Assembly (NCBI GenBank): GCA_026392045.1
Contig: JAPLCU010000025.1
Coordinates: forward strand, 1 to 40,933
Source: Armatimonadota bacterium
GTDB lineage: Bacteria; Armatimonadota; UBA5829
Reading direction: 5' to 3'
Length of the DNA: 40,933 nt
How positions within the stretch are numbered: position 1 is the first letter of the stretch; each line of letters opens with the position of its first letter. Shown here piece by piece: positions 132-20,043 of the stretch. Both the position numbers and the translations under genes were made by a program. The notes below the pieces were generated by a model. The model had not been told where the DNA came from, did no database searches, and worked only from the letters and a program-made list of their open reading frames with translations.

Positions 132-1874
132 TTACTGCAGCAGTCTCAAGAGAGTCTGCGGCATCTGGTTCGCCTGAGCGAGCATCGAGACACCCGACTG
201 CTGAAGTATCTGGTTCTTGGTCAAATTTACGACCTCAGCTGCCATATCGGTATCTCTAATCGTGCTTTCGGAAGCCGATATGTTCTCTTTCGCGATGTTC
301 AGCGATGTGATGCTGCTTTCGAGAACGTTCTTCTGAGTTGCGCCGAGCGCTGCTCTCTGGCTGGATATCTGCTGGATAGCATCATCCATGATCCTGATCG
401 CCTTTTGAGCGCCATTGTTTTTTTCATCAGTAACATTGATCGTGGATAGACTTTCATCTTCCAGAGCGCCGCGTCCGAGTTCATTGGCAAATATCGAGCC
501 GATGTTGACGTCTCTGAGCTGGTTATCGTAAGCGCCCACCTGGAACTTCAGCGTGTTCACGCCGAGGTTGAACTGTGTGGCGTAATCCATAGCAACAGAA
601 CCCATCGCTTCGCGCATTTTGATGGTGTTGCCCAGGCTATCTTTGAGTTCCAGACCAATGCCTGATTGCCAGATTGCGTCTGATACGCTCTGTTCGATGC
701 CGTTAATAACTTTGGTGACTTCAGCCCGCGCATTCGCGCCATAGTCGTTTGCTGTGGATATGCCGCCAAGGAAGTCTGATGCAAGAGTCATACCGATCTT
801 GGCTATCGAGCCATATTCATTGGTTTTGACATCGATTTGGCCGGTGACCTGGTTGTAGGTCGCAGCGGCTCTTGTCAGGTCGGTCTTGGCATTGATCTTA
901 ATGATTAGATCCTGGACAGAGTCGCCGGATGCATAGTCGACTTTTACACCATTGACATACATTGATCCGTTTCTTGTGGCAAAAGCGCCCCAATCAGTGC
1001 CGGTTCCATAGTTTGAAGTAGCGGCGAACAGCGTTCCAGCCGCAGTTGTTATCACATCAAACGTTCCCGCAGCGCCGATTGTCGTGCTCGTGAGATCAAT
1101 TGCCCCAGTGGTAGTGTTGTATGTCGCTCCAACACCGGTTGTTGTTTTCACGGCTTCAATGGCAGTCAGAACGGTAGCCACAGTGTCTGCGGTTACGTAA
1201 GCAACAGTGGCGCCATTAATAAGCATGGTGCCCCAAGCTCCCATTACCGCAGTTGTATCGGCAAATGTGGCTAATGTGGCCGCAAGTCCGCTGGTCAGTG
1301 CACTATATGTTGCAGCGCTGGAAAGTGTTGCTTTCTCAGCAGCCGCAGTGATATTGATTTTGATAGCGACGCCATCGGTTAGATTGTTTGCATACGAGAA
1401 GTCACCCGTCATAACTGCACTGCCATCGATGTATGTCCTGATACCCGCAGTTCCGTCGAGCAGCTTCCTGCCGCCAAACATTGTTTCCTGGGCGATCTTG
1501 TTAAGAGACTGGATAGAGTTGGTGATCTGGGCTTGGTCTGCCTGTACGGCAGCCGGGTCGTTCGCACCTGTGTTGGCTGCATGGACCGCCAGGTCTCTCA
1601 TTGACCTTAGGAGTCGGCTGACTTCACTGAGAGCGCCTTCTGCGGTTTTTACCATATTGACCGCATCTCCAGCGTTCTTGATGGCTTGTCCGATACCACT
1701 TACCTGGGCACGCAGTTTTTCGGAAATGACCAATCCTGCGGGATCATCGCCTGCGGAGTTAATTTTGAACCCCGAAGACAAACGCTCGATGGTCTTTGAG
1801 AGAGTTGTGTCCGTTTCCGACAACGTTCTGTGCGCGGTCAAAGCCGCGGTATTCAGGTTAATTCGTAGACTCAC
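132..1874 (-). CDS. Flagellin
   Basis: This is the structural subunit of the flagellar filament, secreted through the flagellar export apparatus. The 580-aa product has the conserved D0/D1 ends: residues 1-140 contain SLRINLN, LSSGFKINSAGDDPAG and KTAEGALSEV, and the last 90 residues contain SQRAALGATQKN and ANQMPQTLLRLLQ. The middle (about 150-440) is Ala/Thr-rich and not conserved, the expected surface-exposed D2/D3 part, which makes this longer than a minimal flagellin of about 280 aa. The start is GTG (1874-1872), chosen because AAGGAGGA sits about 10 nt upstream and the conserved N-terminus begins there. No other flagellar gene is present, so it is a monocistronic unit with its own terminator and possibly a sigma-28-like promoter. 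Confidence 0.96.
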   Translation of the reverse strand: MSLRINLNTAALTAHRTLSETDTTLSKTIERLSSGFKINSAGDDPAGLVISEKLRAQVSGIGQAIKNAGDAVNMVKTAEGALSEVSRLLRSMRDLAVHAANTGANDPAAVQADQAQITNSIQSLNKIAQETMFGGRKLLDGTAGIRTYIDGSAVMTGDFSYANNLTDGVAIKINITAAAEKATLSSAATYSALTSGLAATLATFADTTAVMGAWGTMLINGATVAYVTADTVATVLTAIEAVKTTTGVGATYNTTTGAIDLTSTTIGAAGTFDVITTAAGTLFAATSNYGTGTDWGAFATRNGSMYVNGVKVDYASGDSVQDLIIKINAKTDLTRAAATYNQVTGQIDVKTNEYGSIAKIGMTLASDFLGGISTANDYGANARAEVTKVINGIEQSVSDAIWQSGIGLELKDSLGNTIKMREAMGSVAMDYATQFNLGVNTLKFQVGAYDNQLRDVNIGSIFANELGRGALEDESLSTINVTDEKNNGAQKAIRIMDDAIQQISSQRAALGATQKNVLESSITSLNIAKENISASESTIRDTDMAAEVVNLTKNQILQQSGVSMLAQANQMPQTLLRLLQ

Positions 1875-1991
1875 TTTTCAGTTTCCTCCTTGAAATCTTT
1901 CCACCTGTCCGCACAAGCAAGTCCATTGCATAACGGCAGATGTCAGTTCAATTCATATTCAGGCACATTAACCGGGTTTCTTTCAATACAC

Positions 1992-9193: not shown

Positions 9194-12100
9194 CCTCTGA
9201 GCTATTTGGTCTCGAACCGATGCGAGAGCGCTGGCATCGCCATTGTAGCTGTTCCACAGAGTCGCGATCTGATCTGTGTATGCTTTTACTCCCGCGCGGC
9301 CTATTTTCTGCTCAAGAAGCCAGAAGTATTGATAATCTTCCACGGAGTCTCTCAGGGTCTCCATGCGAATTGATGTAACCGGTCCGTTGATGCCCACCTG
9401 ATAACCAGGATAGAACAGCGATCCCTCGCCATAGCGCCCATAAGTGTTGCCTACTCCCAGAGTATCCGCAGATGTCCAAGGATCAGGAACTGACGAAGAC
9501 CAGAAATCGACCTTCCAATAGAGGAATCCTGTGCATGCATAGTGATAAGACTGCCATGTCAGCACGCGCAGATCCATCGGCTTGCTCTGGATAAAGAACT
9601 TAGGATCAAGCGCTGTGCAGCCCCAAAGCGTATCTCCCGCCTGGCGTCTTGCCTCAAGCGCAGGCGCCACGCGCGTCTCCCAGAACTTGATACCTATACA
9701 CCAGAGGTTGGTATAGCCAGTGAGCTCGTCTATAATCTTGATCTGAGACCAGTATTGGTCTCTGTCCGCGCCAAGGACCGGCTCGCTTGCGGCGGAGGAT
9801 GTGTGGGCGACCTTGCACTTGTAGAGATAGTCCTGCCAATAGTAGGGTCCCTCGTCGCCATGGCAAACAATTTCCCCAACTGCGTAGCTTCTGCCGGAAA
9901 CCCATCTGGGCTCAGCGCTGGCTCTCGGGTCATCGACTACCGTAGCCATCGCCAGAGCAGCAGGCTTGATGCTATGCACATAGGTGCAATCATTCTTTAC
10001 ACTCGCAACATGCGCCATAGACCAAATCTCATCAGCGAGATAGAAATAGCCCTTATTGAGCACACCGAGTGATTCGAAGCGATTCATGCTGTTTGTCAAA
10101 TACGTCGCATTGGTGGTCCACGGTATGAGTGTGGCAGATAGTCTCGGATCAGTGAGGTACTTGGCTCCATCAGCCGAGAAGATGTCAGTGCCCGTAGGAA
10201 TAACAAACGGACAGACGCCATGGTTCAACATGAACTCGCTGTATATCTTTTCAAGATCAAAGCCCTGAGTCGAGTGGCGGTCGATCTTGTGCTGAATCGC
10301 CATCTCATAAGGATCGAACTGGAATGCGGTGGCGTATTTGTTCGCATCCGGAAGCGCGAAGTTATAAACGTGCAAAACGTAGGGAATCTCAGTCTTAGCG
10401 CCGCTGGCGTCAGTGATTGTGATCTTGCCAGTATAGTCGCCCTCGGCAGCAGTCTTCGGAACGGCTACGTCGAGCCAAATTGGCTTGGTCTCACCTGCGC
10501 CCAGCGTAAACGGCTTCTGGTAAGGAGGCAGCGCATCGGGATAGTCTTGCTTATAATCGGGCAAGTATATATACGAAGCCAGAAATACTGATACATTCGA
10601 TGCCGAGATCGTGCTTGCCCCGGAGGTAAGGTCGCTCGCTGAGATTGTGACTGAGCTAACAGCGCTGGCTCCGCCGCGAAGCACCACCTGGAACGCCTCG
10701 TGTTCACCCTTCGCAGCCTTGATAACAGGCGTCTGCAGATTCTTGACCGGATCAGTCTTGAGAATTTTCTCCAAAGAAGTTGCTGTCCAAATCGAGCCCT
10801 GGAACAGATTTTCAGGACGATCAGGAGCTATCATATCACTGCTGGATTCAACCCTCAGAACCGGTATCGCTGCTCCCACGTCGTTATTCTCAGCGCCAAC
10901 ACACCCGATAAGCGTAAACTGGCCGCTGGTGTTTGTGTTTTCGGGGGCATAGACCTTGATAGCCTGCATACCATCCGTGAAATCAAGCGTACCCGAGGCG
11001 ATATCAGCGGATGCAATTGACCCGGAGACTGACACAAGCAGACCGGTCATTGCCGCTGTTTCGAGCACAGATTCGATTGTGGATGATATAGCTGCAATCT
11101 TCATATTTGATGTCGAAACCGCCTGAGTATCAGCAATTATCACACGCTCGCCATTCAACGTGTCCAAAATGCCTTTAATGGCAATTTGCTGTCCCTCAAC
11201 TGCGTTTGTCTGCCCAATGATACGAATACCCGAACTGCAGTCTGTTTCTTCTATATAATACCCAGTCGCAGCGATGCTTCCGTCCGCATCAAGCTCGTTG
11301 ACCATCTTAGTTTGGGATTTGGGCGCCAATTGTACCAATGTGCCATCTTCAAGATTGGCAAGCTCAGAGATATTGGCAATGTTGACAACTGTCGGAGGTG
11401 GGGGCGGGGACGGAGGCGGAGGAGTAACCGCCGGCATATTAACTCTGGCTACACCGGCTATGTTCCATGCGGGGAGTATGTTATAGATGGTAACCAGCGA
11501 GTAAAAGTCAAAGCTCCCGTCTTTTGGAGGAACGTTGTACCATTGCAGCGGATGAATGGAGCTCATGCAGGTAACTATCTCGTCCACACCGTCATCATCC
11601 ACATCGCCAATTACCGTGCTCCCTCTATTTACGGTCCATGGCCAGTGTGAGCCTTTGACCTTGGAAAGGTTCCAGTTTCTATCGGTGAAATAGACCGTGG
11701 GGTCATAATCATCTGAGGCATAAAACGCCATAACCCGCGCCGGAACGGTGGCATCCAACTTGCCGCAACCTATGGGAACCCAATCGGGATACGGAGCTTT
11801 ATGATCATAGCCCGTGAAGCCGGCGCGCCATCGCATGCCTACGCCATTGGTCCACCAGACGAGATCAGACTTGATTCCACGCTGCCGAACGTCGGCAGCA
11901 TAAGCCTTGTCCATCCAAACCGATACACGACGTTGCGTGCCAGTGGGGCTAATGCTGTAAGATTTGCGATAAATCTGCGAGGCATAGACAATTCGCCCGA
12001 TTGTTCCCAATCCACCGGTTCGCAGCACAGTCAATGGAACTGCATCGATAGGTGTGTTGGGGATAGCATAATTTTGTTCGGGATGCCAAAGCCCATCGCC

Positions 12101-12798: not shown

Positions 12799-14121
12799 CT
12801 GAACGAAAAAGCCCTGAGTCAGAAAACCAATGTCAGCAGCCCGCCCAACCCCATGTCCATGAGCCTGCGGCACAACTTCATGTGGACGCTGGCCGGCAAT
12901 TTGACGTATAGCGGGTGCCAATGGGGAATGCTTGTCGCAATCGCTAAGCTGGGTACGGTGGAGGGAGTTGGGTATTTCGGCCTCGCATTCGCAATTACAG
13001 CGCCAATCATCATTTTCGCGAACATGCAGCTTTGCGTAGTTGCGGGAACAGATACAAAACGAGATTACCTTTTCAGCGATTATCTCGGCCTCAGAATCAT
13101 CACAACAATAATCGCGCTGCCGGCAATGATTGGGTTTGGGGTGATTTCCGGCTCAGATCGCGAAAGTGTGCTTATCATCATAGTGATCGGCGTTGCTAAA
13201 GCAATTGAATCTATGAGCGATATCGTCTATGGCCCCTGTTATCAACAAGAGAGACTGGAGCGAGTCGCGATCTCAATGATCCTAAAGGGATTGATATCAC
13301 TTGCCACGCTCTGCACCGTCATGTATGTCACCCGTAGTATTCTATATGCTTCGATATCTTTGGCTATTTCATGGGCCATAATAGTAGTTCTTTATGACAT
13401 CAAGAGCCCGGCCGTAATTGCCAGAATGGCACGAGAATCACATATTGCAATGGTCGAAGATCTAAATATGCATCCGCATTTTAATTGGCCAAAGCTTAGG
13501 AAGCTGTTGACGCTTGCACTCCCCCTTGGTTTCGTTACCATGCTCGGTTCTCTCACCTTAAACGGCCCGCGCTACTTCATTGAATGGTGTTTCGGCAAAC
13601 ATGATCTGGGTATCTTTGTGGCGTTGGCATATCTTATGGCGGCCGGAAACACAATATTCACCGCGCTCGGGCAGTCGACAATGCCCCGCATGTCCAAATA
13701 CTACGCAGCCAAAGATTTCAGGGCTTTCAAAAAGCTTCTTGTAAAGCAGGTTGCATTCGCGGCAATGTTGACCGTGTGCGGAGTATTGTTAGTTTCAATG
13801 GCAGGCCAGTGGTTGCTGAGCGTTATTTATAAGCCCGAATATGCCACCCACCAAACAGAGTTCATTTGGTTGACCCTGGGAACTGGAATTGGGTTTATTG
13901 GCGGATATCTGGGGCAAGGGGTGACCGCGGCCCGAGCTTACAGACACCTCACGATATCATCCGTCACAATCACCGCTTCGGCCATTTTGATCTCGTGGAT
14001 GCTGATACCGAAATTTGGAATACTGGGAGCAGCCTGGACTACCGGGTTGGTTGGGGTGGTGAGTTGCATAATGCCGATCATTATTTTGATCACGCTCCTG
14101 CGCAAAGAGGCATGTTCATGA
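12799..14121 (+). CDS. Polysaccharide flippase (Wzx-like, MATE/MOP superfamily)
   Basis: Integral membrane protein expected to move lipid-linked sugar repeat units across the inner membrane. About 12 hydrophobic segments are spread along the chain, and the N-terminus (LRHNFMWTLAGNLTYSGCQWGMLVAIAKLG) has the layout of PF01943/PF13440 flippases. The last part (ATG 12853 onward) is 422 aa. I extend the start to CTG 12799 because GAGGAGG (12784-12790) sits 8 nt before it and the frame is open from 12766, whereas ATG 12853 has no ribosome binding site. The extra 18 residues are polar, as expected for a cytoplasmic tail. It is the first gene of the polysaccharide locus and overlaps the next gene by 4 bp (ATGA). 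Confidence 0.85.
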   Translation: MNEKALSQKTNVSSPPNPMSMSLRHNFMWTLAGNLTYSGCQWGMLVAIAKLGTVEGVGYFGLAFAITAPIIIFANMQLCVVAGTDTKRDYLFSDYLGLRIITTIIALPAMIGFGVISGSDRESVLIIIVIGVAKAIESMSDIVYGPCYQQERLERVAISMILKGLISLATLCTVMYVTRSILYASISLAISWAIIVVLYDIKSPAVIARMARESHIAMVEDLNMHPHFNWPKLRKLLTLALPLGFVTMLGSLTLNGPRYFIEWCFGKHDLGIFVALAYLMAAGNTIFTALGQSTMPRMSKYYAAKDFRAFKKLLVKQVAFAAMLTVCGVLLVSMAGQWLLSVIYKPEYATHQTEFIWLTLGTGIGFIGGYLGQGVTAARAYRHLTISSVTITASAILISWMLIPKFGILGAAWTTGLVGVVSCIMPIIILITLLRKEACS

Positions 14122-15428
14122 GAAAGCTCCAAGATTGGTTACTAGCCGGATATATAATCCTGCTTCCTATTCAGTTCAAAATGGGCGACTTTGGCCGATA
14201 TGCGCCTTCTGATACTTTTCTGTTCTTCATATTGCTGGGTTCGGCGCTTGGAGTGATGCGTTTGCGTATCAAACCTAATACCTGGAGTTTCTGGCATCTG
14301 GGATTGATAGCGGCTTTCTTGATTGCAACGCTTGTCGGTCTGGTGCGAACAGGCCGAGTGACACAATACGCCGTCATAAACAAAGACATCGGCTTGCTTG
14401 TGCTGTTTTCGGCTTATGCCGTGATGATCAACGCCGCCGACAGTTGGAAGCGCATCAGATGGATTTTGCGATTGCTGGTCTTGAGTGTTGCCATACAAAA
14501 TGTTTTCTGCGTTTTGGGATTTCTTGCAGTCAGGACTATGGGGGCGCAGTTGCCATTTCTTCTCTCGGACAACACTCGCCTTAACGGCCTCCTGGTAGAC
14601 CCAAATGCTTATGGCGGGCTGCTGGTCATGGCGATAAGCGTGCATATAGTCACCTATTTCCACCGGCAGCCTTTAGTGCCGGGGTTCGCAGGCGCCTTGG
14701 TAACTATAACGCTCGCAATGGGCGTGCTGCTCACGTATTCTCGATCAGCGTGGATAGGCCTTTTTGCTCTTATGCTGATAGTAATGGCGCAAGGCCCAAA
14801 AGCAGGGATTCGGCTTGCGCTGCTTGGCATTGTGAGTTTCTATGCCATTTTGCAAGTCATGGGGCCTCAATATGCCAATGAAATGAGCTCATTGGCATTT
14901 AGGCAGTCGCAGGTCACGGATCGAATCGAACTTATCCACAAGGCAATACTAATGTTCTGGCAGAGCCCGCTGTTCGGTATTGGGATGGGCGTATTCTGGG
15001 AAAAGTACGGCACCATCATCCACAACACCCCGGTCTGGATTCTCACTGAATGCGGCGTATTTGGATTTGTTATATTCGCCGGATTCAGCGCCTGGTTTCT
15101 GCTGAAAGGCATTCAGGCCTACAGGCTGGTGGGAAGGACAGAGAAAGCGCTGGTTATGGGTCTGCTGGCAAGCGACCTGGTCATGATGGGATTGTCAATG
15201 GGAATAGAAGCTACCTACCAACGGCACTGGTGGCTAGTTTTGGCGATGATAGCGGCATCTTATCGCCTATCGCGTGAAAAATCTTTGTTCGGGGGGATTT
15301 GCAATCCCGCCCGAAACGGTAGGCTTCGGCATCAGGATACCGAAGCAACAAACGGTAGGCTTCGGCATCAGGATACCGAAGTAACAAACGGTAGGCTTCG
15401 GCATCAGGATACCGAAGCAACAAGCTGA
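14118..15428 (+). CDS. O-antigen ligase/polymerase-like membrane protein
   Basis: A 436-aa multi-spanning membrane protein of the Wzy/WaaL group, which either polymerises repeat units or ligates the glycan to its acceptor. About ten hydrophobic helices are visible. A large loop near residues 285-320 carries the PLFGIGMGVFWEKYGTIIHNTPVWILTECG region, with the IHN segment usual for this family. The start is ATG 14118, overlapping the flippase stop as ATGA. The last 45 residues are abnormal: FGGICNPARNGRLRHQDTEAT and two more copies of NGRLRHQDTEAT/VT are a translation of an intergenic palindrome plus three 36-bp repeats (15315-15422), so the original C-terminus has been replaced or extended by repeat DNA. 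Wzy and WaaL cannot be told apart here. Confidence 0.85.
   Translation: MRKLQDWLLAGYIILLPIQFKMGDFGRYAPSDTFLFFILLGSALGVMRLRIKPNTWSFWHLGLIAAFLIATLVGLVRTGRVTQYAVINKDIGLLVLFSAYAVMINAADSWKRIRWILRLLVLSVAIQNVFCVLGFLAVRTMGAQLPFLLSDNTRLNGLLVDPNAYGGLLVMAISVHIVTYFHRQPLVPGFAGALVTITLAMGVLLTYSRSAWIGLFALMLIVMAQGPKAGIRLALLGIVSFYAILQVMGPQYANEMSSLAFRQSQVTDRIELIHKAILMFWQSPLFGIGMGVFWEKYGTIIHNTPVWILTECGVFGFVIFAGFSAWFLLKGIQAYRLVGRTEKALVMGLLASDLVMMGLSMGIEATYQRHWWLVLAMIAASYRLSREKSLFGGICNPARNGRLRHQDTEATNGRLRHQDTEVTNGRLRHQDTEATS
15296..15422. repeat. Family-D array, three perfect-length 36-bp units, in the ligase gene
   Basis: Units at 15315-15350, 15351-15386 and 15387-15422 are identical except for one C-to-T. Each has the arms CTTCGG and CCGAAG around CATCAGGATA. 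A GGATTTGCAATCC palindrome with a GCCCGAA tail (15296-15316) precedes the array; the same palindrome type begins the window (4-24). The unit length is a multiple of three, so the array is read as NGRLRHQDTEAT. The stop codon follows 4 bases later. A longer version of the same unit occurs in the next gene in a different reading frame. Confidence 0.95.
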
Positions 15429-15440
15429 GGTGTTGAAATC

Positions 15441-18107
15441 ATGAGAGTGGTGTATACCCTGGATCAGCGATACGATAGCACACCGGATGGAGCTGTGTGG
15501 GTGCGCGGCGGAGCGCCTTACGAATACTGGACTCGGTTTCTAGAGGTTTTTGATCAGGTCCTGCTGTTGGCGCGCGTGCGCCTGGTCGAAAATCCTCCGC
15601 CTGGGGCACATCGCGTTGACGGTGATCATGTGTCAGTTGCCCCGCTGCCGTATTACATCGGCCCCTTTCAATATCTCCTGCGCTCGCGACATATCACCCG
15701 AGCGGCTTTGGAGGCGATCAATTTTGACGATGCTGTTATCTTGTGCGGTGGTCAGATATGTGATCCCATCGCCGAAACGCTTCTTCGCGTAGATCACCCT
15801 TATGCTGTGCACGTCACAGGCGATCCGTTTGACGCTTTCAGCCCAGGCGCAATCAGGCATCCTCTGCGTGGTTACGTGAGATATCATGCGTCTGCATCTC
15901 TCAGGCGTTTGTGCAAAAACGCAAACGCAGCATCTTATGTGACGCAGAGCGCTCTGCAGCAGCGATATCCCTGCAACGGGTTCTCTATCGGCGTATCTGA
16001 CGCGAACATTCCCGCCGATTTTTGCATAGCTAAACCGCGCCCAATTTGCGAAAATCCGGGAACATTCAAAGTGATCATGGTGGGTTCGCTCGCACAAATG
16101 TATAAAGCGCCGGATATACTCATAAAAGCGGTTGGGAGGGCGAAGCTCCCGCTGAGCCGTGGGGGGGGAGGAATGGATATTAGACTGACGATAGTCGGCG
16201 ACGGTAAACATCGGCCTGCGCTTGAAGCACAGGCAAGCCGCCTGGGGATAGCAGACATCATACAATTCAAAGGGGAGCTGCCATCCGGGCAAGCCATTGT
16301 AAACGAACTGGATAAAGCCGATTTATTCGCGCTTGTCTCCCGCACCGAGGGGCTTCCGCGCGCGATGGTCGAGGCTATGGGGCGAGGGCTGCCGTGTATC
16401 GGTTCAAGTGTTGGCGGTATACCCGAACTGCTTTGCGCCGAAGACCTTGTTCCCGCCGGTAATTGGCAGGCTCTATCGGGCAAGTTACGCGAGATAGCCG
16501 GCGATCCTCACCGGCTGGCGCTAATGTCAGAAAGAAACTTAAAGAGAGCCAGAGCATTTCAAGATGATCTTCTGCGCGACCGGCGAGTGGCTTTCTTCTC
16601 TTACATCCGAGAAAGGACTGAAGAATGGCTGGCTTCGGCATCGGCATCAGGATACCGAAGCAACCAAGAATGGCTGGCTTCGGCTTCGGCGTCAGGATAC
16701 CGAAGCAACCAATGGCTGGATTCGGCTTCGGCATCAGGATACCGAAACAACCAATGGCTGGATTCGGCTTCGGCATCAGGATACCGAAACAACCAATGGC
16801 TGGCTTCGGCTTCGGCATCAGGCTACCGAAGCAACCAATGGCTCGGCAGGAGCCTCGCCCTCCCCGGGAGCCTCGCCCTCCCCGGGAGGCTTGCTCATAT
16901 AACTACAATTCCCAGCACGCTAATGTTCCTGACAGGACAGGTCGAATATATGCGCTCTAAGGGATTCGAAATACATACTCTGTCGTCGCCCGGGAAAATA
17001 CCCGCCGAGCATGCTGAGCTCTGTCGAAGCACGCGGCAGGAGATATGTAAGCACCATACCGTAAAGATGACGCGCCGCATCACACCTGCGCAGGATCTTG
17101 TGGCGCTTATTGATCTGACTCGGATTTTGAAGCGAATTCGCCCGACGATTGTACACTCACATACTCCAAAAGCTGGTCTTCTGGGTATGCTGTCTGCATG
17201 GATAGCGCGAGTTCCCATAAGGGTCTATCACATTCACGGGCTGCCTTTTATCACAGCCACAGGCCATAAACGCTTCATTCTGGGCATCACTGAGCGCCTA
17301 TCGTGCAAGCTCGCGCATCAGGCGCTGTGCGTAAGCCCGAGCGTGCGTGACGTGGTGATTTCTGAAGGATTCTGCCCGGCTGATAAGATCAAGGTAATAG
17401 GCTGCGGAAGCATAAATGGAGTGGACGCCGAGGGCGCATTCAATCCTGATTCAATGGGTGGATCCCGCGCGGAGGTGCGCAAGAAATATAATATTCCGCA
17501 AGACGCGGTTGTCATAGGATTCGTCGGTCGAGTCGTGCGCGATAAGGGTGTTGGCGAATTAGTTGAGGCTTGGCAGAACATCAAGGCTGAGTTTCCAGAG
17601 GCATACTTGATGATAATCGGGGATTTCGAAGCAGAAGATGCGATCCCTGTGAGCGCCGAAGAAGCGCTTCGAAGCGATGATCGGGTGCGCATAACCGGAT
17701 TTCTGTGGGAGATGCCTCCGCTCTACGCCGCAATGGACATGGTCGTGCTTCCGACGTATCGGGAGGGTTTCCCGGTCGTGCCTCTTGAAGCTGCGGCAAT
17801 GATGCTGCCCGTTATCGCCACGACCGTGCCCGGATGTGTGGATGCTGTGATTGATGGCGTCACCGGCAAGCTCATACATCCCAAAGACTCAAAAGCGCTT
17901 ACGGAAGCCATCAGGAATTACCTCAAGGATGAGAATTTGCGATTGGCTCACGGACAAGCTGGCCGAGAACGAGTAATCACAGAGTTTCGTCCAAGAGACA
18001 TCTGGGAAGCAACTCATACTGAGTATTTGCGGCTTCTGCGTGAAGCAGGGAATAGAAGGGAGGGAATAGGTTACAGGGAACAGGGAATAGAAGGGAGGCG
18101 GAGGTAA
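15441..18107 (+). CDS. Double GT4 glycosyltransferase fused through a repeat array
   Basis: An 888-aa cytoplasmic protein made of two GT-B fold family 4 glycosyltransferases. The first (about 1-390) has the C-terminal donor-binding motif RTEGLPRAMVEAMGRG (E-x7-E). The second (about 490-870) has HITTIPSTLMFLTGQ at its N-terminus and REGFPVVPLEAAAMM (E-x7-E). Between them is a low-complexity linker of five WLASASASGYRSNQ-type units and SLALPG repeats, a direct translation of family-D and family-E repeat DNA (16623-16890). The second enzyme has lost its own start codon, so the parts are covalently joined. Further repeat insertions are at 16134-16168, 17008-17034 and 18044-18101 (the tail GYREQGIEGRRR). 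ATG 15441 has GAGG 11 nt upstream. Each half would add one sugar to the lipid-linked unit. Confidence 0.88.
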   Translation: MRVVYTLDQRYDSTPDGAVWVRGGAPYEYWTRFLEVFDQVLLLARVRLVENPPPGAHRVDGDHVSVAPLPYYIGPFQYLLRSRHITRAALEAINFDDAVILCGGQICDPIAETLLRVDHPYAVHVTGDPFDAFSPGAIRHPLRGYVRYHASASLRRLCKNANAASYVTQSALQQRYPCNGFSIGVSDANIPADFCIAKPRPICENPGTFKVIMVGSLAQMYKAPDILIKAVGRAKLPLSRGGGGMDIRLTIVGDGKHRPALEAQASRLGIADIIQFKGELPSGQAIVNELDKADLFALVSRTEGLPRAMVEAMGRGLPCIGSSVGGIPELLCAEDLVPAGNWQALSGKLREIAGDPHRLALMSERNLKRARAFQDDLLRDRRVAFFSYIRERTEEWLASASASGYRSNQEWLASASASGYRSNQWLDSASASGYRNNQWLDSASASGYRNNQWLASASASGYRSNQWLGRSLALPGSLALPGRLAHITTIPSTLMFLTGQVEYMRSKGFEIHTLSSPGKIPAEHAELCRSTRQEICKHHTVKMTRRITPAQDLVALIDLTRILKRIRPTIVHSHTPKAGLLGMLSAWIARVPIRVYHIHGLPFITATGHKRFILGITERLSCKLAHQALCVSPSVRDVVISEGFCPADKIKVIGCGSINGVDAEGAFNPDSMGGSRAEVRKKYNIPQDAVVIGFVGRVVRDKGVGELVEAWQNIKAEFPEAYLMIIGDFEAEDAIPVSAEEALRSDDRVRITGFLWEMPPLYAAMDMVVLPTYREGFPVVPLEAAAMMLPVIATTVPGCVDAVIDGVTGKLIHPKDSKALTEAIRNYLKDENLRLAHGQAGRERVITEFRPRDIWEATHTEYLRLLREAGNRREGIGYREQGIEGRRR
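16134..16168. repeat. Family-E palindrome inserted in the first glycosyltransferase
   Basis: GGGAGGGCGAAGCTCCCGC begins a 24-bp stretch (16134-16157) that matches, with two differences, the palindrome after the dehydratase gene (30997-31021). A run of eight G follows (16161-16168). It is read in frame as GRAKLPLSRGGGG, at a loop where relatives normally have only a few residues between a helix and the DIRLTIVGDG strand. Confidence 0.75.
16623..16890. repeat. Family-D and family-E arrays joining two glycosyltransferases
   Basis: Five family-D units lie end to end: 45 bp (16623-16667), 45 bp (16668-16712) and three of 42 bp (16713-16754, 16755-16796, 16797-16838), all multiples of three. Two 18-bp units ending CGCCCTCCCC (16848-16865 and 16866-16883) follow and are inverted copies of the family-E motif. 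No strand or frame of the array contains frequent stops, so it is translated without interruption. Confidence 0.95.
17008..17034. repeat. MITE-core motif inside the second glycosyltransferase
   Basis: The 27 bp from 17008 differ at about three positions from the inverted arm of MITE copy 1 (5763-5791, reverse complement); the shared core is CTGAGCTC-N-GTCGAAG. It is read in frame as AEHAELCRSTR, in a loop that is some 6-8 residues longer than I expect for relatives. No terminal repeats or target duplication are visible around it. Confidence 0.6.
18044..18101. repeat. Family-B repeat forming the glycosyltransferase C-terminus
   Basis: GGGAATAGAAGGGAGGG / GGTTACAGGGAACAGGG units are the inverted form of the repeats at 2194-2262, including a 24-bp exact match. 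They encode the last 20 residues and, through GGAGGCGGAGG, supply the ribosome binding site of the next gene. Confidence 0.8.
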
Positions 18108-18112
18108 TCGCA

Positions 18113-18751
18113 GTGATAGCCAAACGAATCATGGATATTGTTTCGGCAATATTGCTGCTTATCGTATTCTTGCCAATCATGCTGATCGCGGCAATAGTCG
18201 TGCGAATCAGCATGGGCAGCCCGGTGATATTCAAGCAGCGTAGACCCGGGCTTAATGGACGGCTTTTCACACTCTACAAGTTTCGCTCGATGACTAACGA
18301 TTTTGATGAGAGCGGCAAATTGCTCCTGGACGAAGAACGCAATACCGGTTTCGGCGACTTTCTGCGCAAGTGCAGCATAGATGAGCTGCCTGAGCTATTT
18401 AATGTGCTCAAGGGCGACATGAGTATGGTCGGACCGCGCCCGCTGCTGGAGGAGTATCTGAACAGATATACACCAGAGCAGGCGCGCAGGCATGAGGTAA
18501 GACCGGGGATTACGGGTCTGGCGCAAATCAGCGGACGGCAAAATCTGACGTTCGGGCAACGCATTGCTCTGGATGTCTTTTATGTGGACCATCGCAGCTT
18601 GTGGATGGACATCAAGATTCTATTCATGACACTGCCGAAGGCGCTGGGGCAGCGAGGGGTAATTATTCAGCAGGAGATAGATGATGTAGATGACATAGGT
18701 CTCAACCCCGATTCAATACTCGGGCGCAGCAGAACCTTAAACAAGCAATAG
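18113..18751 (+). CDS. Polyprenyl-phosphate sugar phosphotransferase (monotopic PGT, PglC/WcaJ C-terminal type)
   Basis: Starts glycan assembly by transferring a sugar 1-phosphate from a nucleotide sugar to undecaprenyl phosphate on the cytoplasmic face of the inner membrane. The 212-aa protein is the minimal catalytic form with one N-terminal hydrophobic re-entrant helix (IVSAILLLIVFLPIMLIAAIVV). Family motifs are KQRRPGLNGR, LYKFRSM, the catalytic Asp-Glu dyad in SIDELPELFNVLKGDMS, VGPRP and VRPGITGLAQISGRQ. GTG 18113 is the start, with GGAGG in the preceding repeat. The stop TAG lies inside the 8-bp target duplication of MITE copy 2, which follows directly. Confidence 0.93.
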   Translation: MIAKRIMDIVSAILLLIVFLPIMLIAAIVVRISMGSPVIFKQRRPGLNGRLFTLYKFRSMTNDFDESGKLLLDEERNTGFGDFLRKCSIDELPELFNVLKGDMSMVGPRPLLEEYLNRYTPEQARRHEVRPGITGLAQISGRQNLTFGQRIALDVFYVDHRSLWMDIKILFMTLPKALGQRGVIIQQEIDDVDDIGLNPDSILGRSRTLNKQ

Positions 18752-18884
18752 GGATGTAACAGCTCACTCTCAATGTTTTGTCATTCCGAACTTGATTCGG
18801 AATCTAAGCCTTAAGCGTAACAGATCCTTAATCGAGTTCAGGATGACAAGTATGCTCACCAAGTCTGAGCTCTTACATAGGGAT
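18748..18884. mobile_element. MITE copy 2 (IS66-like termini, 8-bp TSD)
   Basis: The element spans 18756-18876 (121 bp), starts GTAACAGCTCA and ends TGAGCTCTTAC, and is flanked by perfect 8-bp repeats ATAGGGAT (18748-18755 and 18877-18884). The core is an imperfect palindrome with TGTCATTCCGAACTTGATTC at its left and its counterpart ending GGATGACA at its right. The core is nearly identical to copy 3 (31322-31390). Removing element and duplicate leaves the sugar-transferase stop and the next start codon only 17 bases apart, so it split an operon. The duplicated bases include both the TAG stop and the AGGGA binding site of the next gene. Confidence 0.88.
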
Positions 18885-18891
18885 AGAACAA

Positions 18892-20043
18892 ATGACAATA
18901 GTAGACAACAGATGGGAGCATGGGTCGTTTTTTCATTGGATGTCACCGAGCGCTGCTGAGGAAGCGGATTACCCTTGGGGGGAAGAAAGTGTCCTGTGCG
19001 GCTCAGGTCGGGACGCATTCAGAGTCCTCATCGAACATGGCAGGGCAAAACGTGGTTGGAAGAGGCTGTATGTTCCGTGCTACTACTGCCAGGAGGTAGT
19101 AGAGTCGCTGCTGTCTACAGGCATCGACGTGCGGCTTTATCCCGATGGTCCCCAGGACGTGATCGTCCGGGGAATCTGTCCCCGGACGGACAATGTCGAT
19201 CTGCGACCCGGAGATGTTGTGCTGCGAGTAGACTTTTTCGGCATGCGAGGCTCGCTGCACACGGAATTGCTTCCAGGTATCGAGACAATTGATGACTTTT
19301 CCCACGATCCGTGGTCGTATGGCGCCTGGAAAAGCAACGCGGATTGGTGCGCGTTCTCCCTCAGGAAAACATTGCCTATTCCAGATGGCGGAGTTCTATG
19401 GTCACCGCGCAGCCATCACTTGCCGCCGCAGCCGCCAGTTACACCAGAGCATAGACTGATATCCCTGGAACGGCTGGCCGCAATGGCGCTTAAAACAGAG
19501 TATCTAAACGGCAAACCCATTCAAAAAAATACGTTTCTCGAATTGGCTATAGCAAGCGAAGTGAAACTTAGCAAAGGGACGCCGTCAGGTATGACCGAAT
19601 GGAGCAAAGACTTATTGAATTGCTTCCCCACCCTCTCGTGGAGGCAACGAAGAAGAGCCAATTATGAGGCATTTGCAGAAGTGATTTCGGGCACGCCATG
19701 GTTGAGATTATTGCACTCTGCAGACAATAAGAAATCGTGCCCATTCTCTGCCATATTTATTTGTGACAACGTCGAACTGCGGAACCATATCCGCGATAGA
19801 CTAATATTGCTCAATATCTATCCAGCAACCTTGTGGCCGCTCGATGAGCCAGCTATTTCTGGAATACCACAGGAATACTTGGATTTCAGCCGAAAAATGC
19901 TGTCCATCCAATGTGACGCCCGCTACACATGCGAAGAAATGCAAAGAGTGGCGAAAATAGTAATCAAATCTGGGGATAACTATCTAAACAAACACCAAGA
20001 ACAACCTACTCAGCAGTCCAATCCGGTAAGCGGCGGAGTATAG
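18892..20043 (+). CDS. PLP-dependent aminotransferase-like protein, fold type I
   Basis: A 383-aa protein that I place in the DegT/aspartate-aminotransferase superfamily. Residues about 135-145 (TIDDFSHDPWSYG) have the Asp that would pair with the pyridine nitrogen of PLP, and SLRKTLPIPDGGVLWSP about 25 residues later contains the expected Schiff-base lysine followed by a Gly-Gly turn. The N-terminal part (VLCGSGRDAFRVLI) matches the phosphate-binding helix region. It is shorter and more divergent than normal sugar aminotransferases, so substrate and even activity are uncertain. ATG 18892 follows MITE copy 2 by 15 bp and uses AGGGA from the target duplication. It is immediately followed by the FemAB-like genes, suggesting a shared role in glycan decoration. 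Confidence 0.7.
   Translation: MTIVDNRWEHGSFFHWMSPSAAEEADYPWGEESVLCGSGRDAFRVLIEHGRAKRGWKRLYVPCYYCQEVVESLLSTGIDVRLYPDGPQDVIVRGICPRTDNVDLRPGDVVLRVDFFGMRGSLHTELLPGIETIDDFSHDPWSYGAWKSNADWCAFSLRKTLPIPDGGVLWSPRSHHLPPQPPVTPEHRLISLERLAAMALKTEYLNGKPIQKNTFLELAIASEVKLSKGTPSGMTEWSKDLLNCFPTLSWRQRRRANYEAFAEVISGTPWLRLLHSADNKKSCPFSAIFICDNVELRNHIRDRLILLNIYPATLWPLDEPAISGIPQEYLDFSRKMLSIQCDARYTCEEMQRVAKIVIKSGDNYLNKHQEQPTQQSNPVSGGV

Follow-up and report, generated by a model that had tools for sequence, protein, structure and literature searches.

The stretch of DNA analysed here (the window) comprises 40,933 nucleotides (nt) of contig JAPLCU010000025.1, from assembly GCA_026392045.1 of an Armatimonadota bacterium, whose 3.55-Mb genome (G000) is called the own genome below. 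A single open reading frame (ORF) at 15441-18107 encodes 888 amino acids (aa) and contains five repeat tracts of four families, denoted E, D, M and B. All five tracts were present, in one open frame, where a preliminary description of the window had placed them, and the four families were repeated genome-wide. With Pfam, two Glycos_transf_1 stretches were found in the ORF, both well over the cut-offs, corresponding to a first half (GT1, 15441-16625, forward strand) and a second half (GT2, 16887-18038, forward strand) of GT4 glycosyltransferase type. The ORF probably arose by fusion of two polysaccharide glycosyltransferase genes that once followed each other, their junction having been filled by mobile repeats.

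Both halves combined a Pfam GT4 domain with an intact EX7E motif (E303..E311 in GT1). Alignment columns around E303-A312 and E321-A330 were invariant, and the catalytic-region residues were conserved. Structure models made with AlphaFold2 from shallow alignments of 8 (GT1) and 5 (GT2) sequences had a mean predicted local distance difference test score (pLDDT) of 81.0 and 81.1, respectively. In a search of 60 relatives, close homologues of each half were ORFs of their own of about 400 aa, and GT1 was a separate gene in genomes G011, G001 and G006. The exceptions were two longer ORFs with homology to GT2 (L044, 604 aa; L046, 926 aa), and no GT1 homologue was found in either. As judged from sequence, two complete GT4 glycosyltransferases, each encoded by a gene of its own in relatives, are contained in the 888-aa ORF, and a glycosyltransferase function is predicted for both domains.

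In G011, which belongs to the same family, GT1 and GT2 adjoin in the same order with a 25-nt overlap. The 3' end of GT1 reads GAA TGG CTG AAA TCC TCC AAC CGG TAA in that genome, and GT2 starts within GAATGG (ATG GCT GAA ATC), its ATG falling within GAATGGCTG. The overlap motif was kept in the window, where GAAGAATGGCTGG codes for EEWL of GT1 and its ATG (16625-16627, forward strand) is the counterpart of the G011 GT2 start codon. This ATG now opens an ORF at 16625-16960 that terminates out of frame with GT2, and GT2 shares the frame of GT1. From the old ATG to the first conserved GT2 residue, a His at 16896 in the window, there are 33 nt in G011 vs. 271 nt in the window, a net gain of 238 nt (3n + 1), because of which GT2 appears to have been shifted from the frame of its own start into the GT1 frame. 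GT2 is without an in-frame start codon of its own, no ATG, GTG or TTG being found in frame between aa 383 and 495.

In the alignment, GT1 ended with the residues EWL, the D array and the E units of the junction came next, and the first GT2 strand followed them; the linker formed residues 1-23 of the GT2 model (pLDDT < 50). The D array (16623-16838, forward strand) consists of five palindromes, similar to repetitive extragenic palindromic sequences (REP), in units of 42-45 bp; Tandem Repeats Finder delimited it at 16624-16843, with a period of 42 and 5.2 copies. Each 42-bp unit carries the locus-specific AATGGCTGG of the ancestral overlap, which suggests that D and the overlap were duplicated together in tandem as the array expanded; among the own-genome loci examined, AATGGCTGG occurred beside D elsewhere only at the end of contig C189. 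On the 3' side of the junction, an E REP-like unit (16840-16863) and its 18-bp tandem partner occupy 16840-16883 on the reverse strand, and the E units given for 16848-16883 were confirmed, with a period of 18. The repeats were nearly stop-free, and therefore most phases read through: no forward frame of the junction contained a stop, five of the six frames were open in the D 42-bp unit and likewise in the E arm, and a composition-matched shuffle of the junction lacked stops in a given single frame in 5% of cases.

In the ancestor, the GT2 start would have lain inside the last GT1 codons (GAATGGCT), as it does in G011. A D-type REP-like palindrome would have landed at this overlap and been duplicated in tandem with AATGGCTGG, and E REP-like units would have been added afterwards. 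With the GT1 stop codon lost, the net length of 3n + 1 would have put GT2 into the GT1 frame, so that GT2 could no longer be read other than within a single two-domain protein of 888 aa. Inside the domains, E (in GT1) and M (in GT2) would have been inserted at places tolerating six extra residues, and the B repeats would form a C-terminal tail. Insertion itself would be blind to frame, selection leaving copies in spacers, linkers and turns. This order of events is presumptive, as is translation of the ORF as a fusion.

Copies of the four families were searched for in the own genome with E (GGGAGGGCGAAGCTCCC, up to two mismatches), M (GCATGCTGAGCTCTGTCGAAGCA, up to three), D (CTTCGGCATCAGGATACCGAAG, up to two) and B (CAGGGAACAGGGAATAG, up to one), and with the reversed patterns as control. 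There were 165 copies of E, 189 of D, 61 of M and 59 of B, and 0 of each reversed pattern; M and B were characterised by copy number and location. A sample picked by contig number comprised 42 stretches with 448,786 bases, of which a home-made gene caller rated 82% as coding; in it, 37 of 40 loci were intergenic (E, 12/14; D, 10/11; M, 9/9; B, 6/6; binomial p about 2e-24 against the coding fraction), counts that are somewhat too high, as the caller overlooks some genes (e.g., 18892-20043 in the window). Among the 30 best-matching copies examined for each of M and E, 24 of M and 22 of E were intergenic, the latter suggesting that the exact single-arm form of E enters genes more often. Genes with E copies inside included NuoN, LpxB, FlhF and CheA (with D); they stayed open. 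Because E was translated there in more than one frame and from either strand, a coding role of the E peptide was rejected. The E insert in LpxB added 8-9 aa vs. none in the 13 family homologues aligned at the site (14 rows, with fragment L225 not covering it). Across the phylum sample, E was present in 20 of 151 genomes, the own genome included.

An E unit consists of GGAG followed by an imperfect palindrome, GGC-GA-NNN-TCCC-NNN-GA-GCC. With both NNN left free, the stem was fully complementary in 50 of 53 own-genome units (AGC/GCT, GGC/GCC and AGG/CCT) and in 22 of 31 units from other genomes, where ACC/GGT occurred in addition. Many units formed inverted pairs about 53 bp apart. E is thus a short imperfect palindrome with a conserved stem, in high copy number and mostly between genes. 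Inverted copies were also found at a gene for a REP-associated tyrosine transposase (RAYT): in G007 (L236), E at 1329-1352 (forward) and 1855-1878 (reverse) directly surrounds a RAYT ORF at 1375-1857, with 83.9 bits to NCBIfam NF047646 (REP_Tyr_transpos; cut-off 80 bits). Other E-rich genomes had a Y1_Tnp match in five of nine cases, and flanking E was found at one of the 12 loci examined, that in G007. Inverted copies of D, at 1232-1253 (reverse) and 1809-1830 (forward), flank a RAYT-like ORF at 1285-1845 in the own genome (L179). E works like a REP as far as its sequence and arrangement go, but is not classed as a GTAG-type REP. Both E and D are probably spread by RAYTs, which would act as the mobilising enzymes. 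The idea that E belongs to a RAYT of the own genome as its REP was considered and dropped, no E being found flanking any of the five own-genome Y1_Tnp loci.

Two further observations were made on these palindromes. Another RAYT-like gene, in L180 (G000:C179), had a third palindrome on both sides, GCTTCGGGAC...GTCCCGAAGC. Single-arm E copies with the AGC/GCT stem (e.g., L131, L134, L137, L065 and L133) often stood directly 3' of heptamer tandems, GGGTGTT or GGGAACA/GGGAATA, as if heptamers and E were moving or growing together.

Three of the five tracts in the 888-aa ORF (D array, E pair and B units) would represent the former junction and tail, because the alignment places them between and after the halves, leaving the E arm and the M motif as the only in-domain tracts. 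The E arm of GT1 (16134-16157, forward strand; REP-like unit 16135-16158) added a net 6 aa relative to intact homologues (AVGRAKLPLSRGGGGMDIRL vs. AVAACVR-DGVDLRL), and lay in the model at the end of helix 224-235 and in the turn preceding strand 247-252. One row of the GT1 homologue alignment (L020), a partly masked fragment, aligned poorly and was given no weight. The M motif of GT2 (17008-17034, forward strand), labelled a core of a miniature inverted-repeat transposable element (MITE) in the preliminary description, likewise added a net 6 aa relative to homologues, and formed residues 69-78 of the GT2 model, of which 72-80 had pLDDT < 50. The B units (18044-18101, forward strand), of heptamer type, started after the last homologous GT2 residue and formed the C-terminal tail (residues 420-434, pLDDT < 50). 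The preliminary description had located all insertions at surface loops or termini, which agreed with the models for the E arm turn, the linker and the tail, and for the M site only as a low-confidence segment. It had also named equal residues in repeat-free homologues as an outcome that would speak against insertion; intact homologues were found without the six residues at both in-domain sites.

The view of the ORF as one gene with five separate insertions held in so far as the ORF was an outlier, and failed in that the D array, E pair and B units belong to the junction and tail of two ancestral genes. Among 574 called genes (795-kb sample including the window; seven repeat families), 21 carried any family: 19 carried one, CheA two, and the 888-aa ORF four. 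In CheA (L112, 15402-17843), the second gene with more than one family, E and D share the linker that separates two duplicated domains.

The E arm of GT1 (16113-16168) was also compared with another E arm, closely preceding a gene judged by eye to be prepilin-like, at G000:C111:30244-30300 (L109, about 10244-10300), to which it was 95% identical over 57 bp. About 22 bp of GT1 coding flank and the following G-run were in common with the window, the flank matching at 20 of 24 bases; most other high-scoring E pairs had repeat flanks. This pair suggests that the E element moved along with flanking DNA.

Several observations weigh against the fusion or against its attribution to RAYT-borne repeats. 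The junction rests on one contig of a metagenome-assembled genome (MAG), and the overlap of GT1 and GT2 is known from one relative, about 1.2 kb lying between them in G001 and G006. Because the repeats are stop-poor, the open frame says little about translation. The end of contig C189 (L110, 11590-11722) holds the 3'-terminal 21 nt of GT1 together with a pair of consensus D units and a single E, and an unrelated NTP-transferase-like gene (named by eye) follows the E. None of the five Y1_Tnp matches of the own genome was a close homologue of the E-flanked RAYT. The D-flanked RAYT-like ORF, over the Pfam Y1_Tnp cut-off, scored 74.3 bits vs. the NCBIfam cut-off of 80. No GT(A/G)G head was found on E, the head being GGAG in the copies listed.

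The C189 end may reflect variation of the junction within the population, or a misjoin there. The opposite possibility, that a collapsed repeat array joined GT1 to GT2 in the window and the true GT1 neighbour is the one on C189, would suit the content of that contig end and the frequency with which contigs of this MAG end in repeats. It is quite unlikely: the window array is tiled by variants seen at no other own-genome locus examined, private variants that make a misjoin in the window the less likely of the two; the neighbours GT1 and GT2 stand in the same order in G011; and the part shared with C189 lies at its very end and is of consensus type. GT1 and GT2 might, alternatively, still be two proteins, GT1 with a repeat tail and GT2 made by a non-canonical start or by frameshifting, the long ORF being merely open. 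The upstream ligase ORF likewise has a repeat tail, openness in all three forward frames leaves the open frame with little to say, and GGGAGG stands a few bases ahead of the first conserved residues of GT2. Separate translation is nevertheless unlikely, given that from aa 383 to 495 GT2 has no usual start codon in frame and that its old ATG is out of frame, with an ORF ending at 16960.

Relaxed constraint, offered as one option in the preliminary description, was supported for the sites, which were permissive (a junction between genes, a C-terminal tail, a turn from helix to strand and a segment modelled with low confidence). It was not supported for the gene as a whole: a decaying ORF, or pseudogene gathering repeats, would agree with the four families, unique among the called genes, and with the poor score of the GT1 half in the coding model of the home-made caller, but is very unlikely with no stop in 888 codons, two GT4 domains well over the Pfam cut-offs and conserved catalytic-region residues. 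A mechanism favouring frame-preserving insertion, another option raised there, or selection of the repeats for an encoded peptide, is highly improbable. In its favour, the spacings between D units in the ORF were all multiples of 3 (4/4), and genes with E copies inside remained open. Three of those four spacings, however, are the same 42-bp duplication, D spacings outside genes were distributed 17/11/11 modulo 3 (n = 39; p = 0.40), most copies are intergenic, E inside genes is translated in more than one frame and from either strand, and the net length gained at the junction is 3n + 1. The statement that all tracts keep the frame is accordingly true of the present ORF and not of the junction relative to the former start of GT2. 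Fusion of two genes across a repeat-filled junction is the reading retained.

REP and REPIN elements of RAYTs (NF047646) resemble E and D in being high-copy short imperfect palindromes, in inverted pairs, RAYT-flanking and mostly intergenic, and E differs from them in that its head is GGAG and its stem seems to contain a tandem G-A mismatch. In parts of the REP literature, the heads described are GT(A/G)G (PMC2817692) and GTAG or CGTC (PMC3733652). Intragenic REPs are known, and parts of the latter source report REPs in uvrA of Opitutus terrae, and also two insertions in one gene (PMC3733652). As here, such REPs lie inside conserved genes and are read as amino acids; they are within single genes, whereas three of the five present tracts are a former junction and tail, with four families involved. 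Rickettsia palindromic elements (RPE) are described, in the portions of the sources drawn on, as palindromic repeats tolerated in frame in conserved protein genes (PMC10969869, PMC2229807), which E resembles through its copies in NuoN, LpxB, FlhF and CheA. By description only, RPE are about 105-150 bp long vs. 24 nt for an E unit (an inverted pair being about 70 bp), and E is RAYT-flanked. Fusions in bacteria of MITE-borne ORFs in frame with host ORFs are also reported, and the portion of that source drawn on held no example in which the repeat links two entire host genes (PMC2229807). A limited literature search, at the level of titles and the first lines of abstracts, returned no REP-made fusion of two genes. 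REPs inside genes are already known; what is new is the fusion of one gene to another.

REPs are generally regarded as extragenic, and the conversion of overlapping genes into one frame would provide a route, open to checking, by which selfish short repeats lead to a multidomain enzyme. The presence of apparently frame-preserving repeats in genes could be explained by stop-poor sequence plus selection, with no special insertion mechanism. As a generalisation, RAYT-type REPs might act as a gene-fusion engine that lands in stop/start overlaps, duplicates, forms flexible linkers and shifts the downstream gene into the frame of its neighbour, giving new two-domain enzymes; this is put forward tentatively, the balance being slightly against it. 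The 926-aa ORF of L046, from G016 (reverse complement of 4-2784), joins Glycos_transf_2 and Glycos_transf_1 (GT-A + GT4) across a junction of hairpin repeats; the junction query had 43 matches in G016, itself counted, and the ORF carries a repeat-like C-terminal tail. It was considered as a candidate second fusion and is not claimed as one, with a possible TTG start just before the GT4 half.

The 888-aa ORF is followed in the same operon by a predicted bacterial sugar transferase (Pfam Bac_transf; 18113-18748, forward strand). A second D array, of three 36-bp units (15322-15421, forward strand), occupies the preceding spacer and forms, as read, the C-terminal tail of the ligase ORF upstream (13866-15428). 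From the ligase gene through the gene after the sugar transferase, successive operon spacers carry repeats or palindromes, because of which the tracts seem to mark spacers rather than the GT1-GT2 gene. The suggestion that this gene is a preferred target was not supported, as the families avoid genes and the other spacers of the operon carry repeats as well. In the next spacer, 3' of the sugar transferase, an inverted repeat-like pair, GTCATTCCGAACTTGATTCGG ... GAGTTCAGGATGACAAG, was found at 18779-18852.

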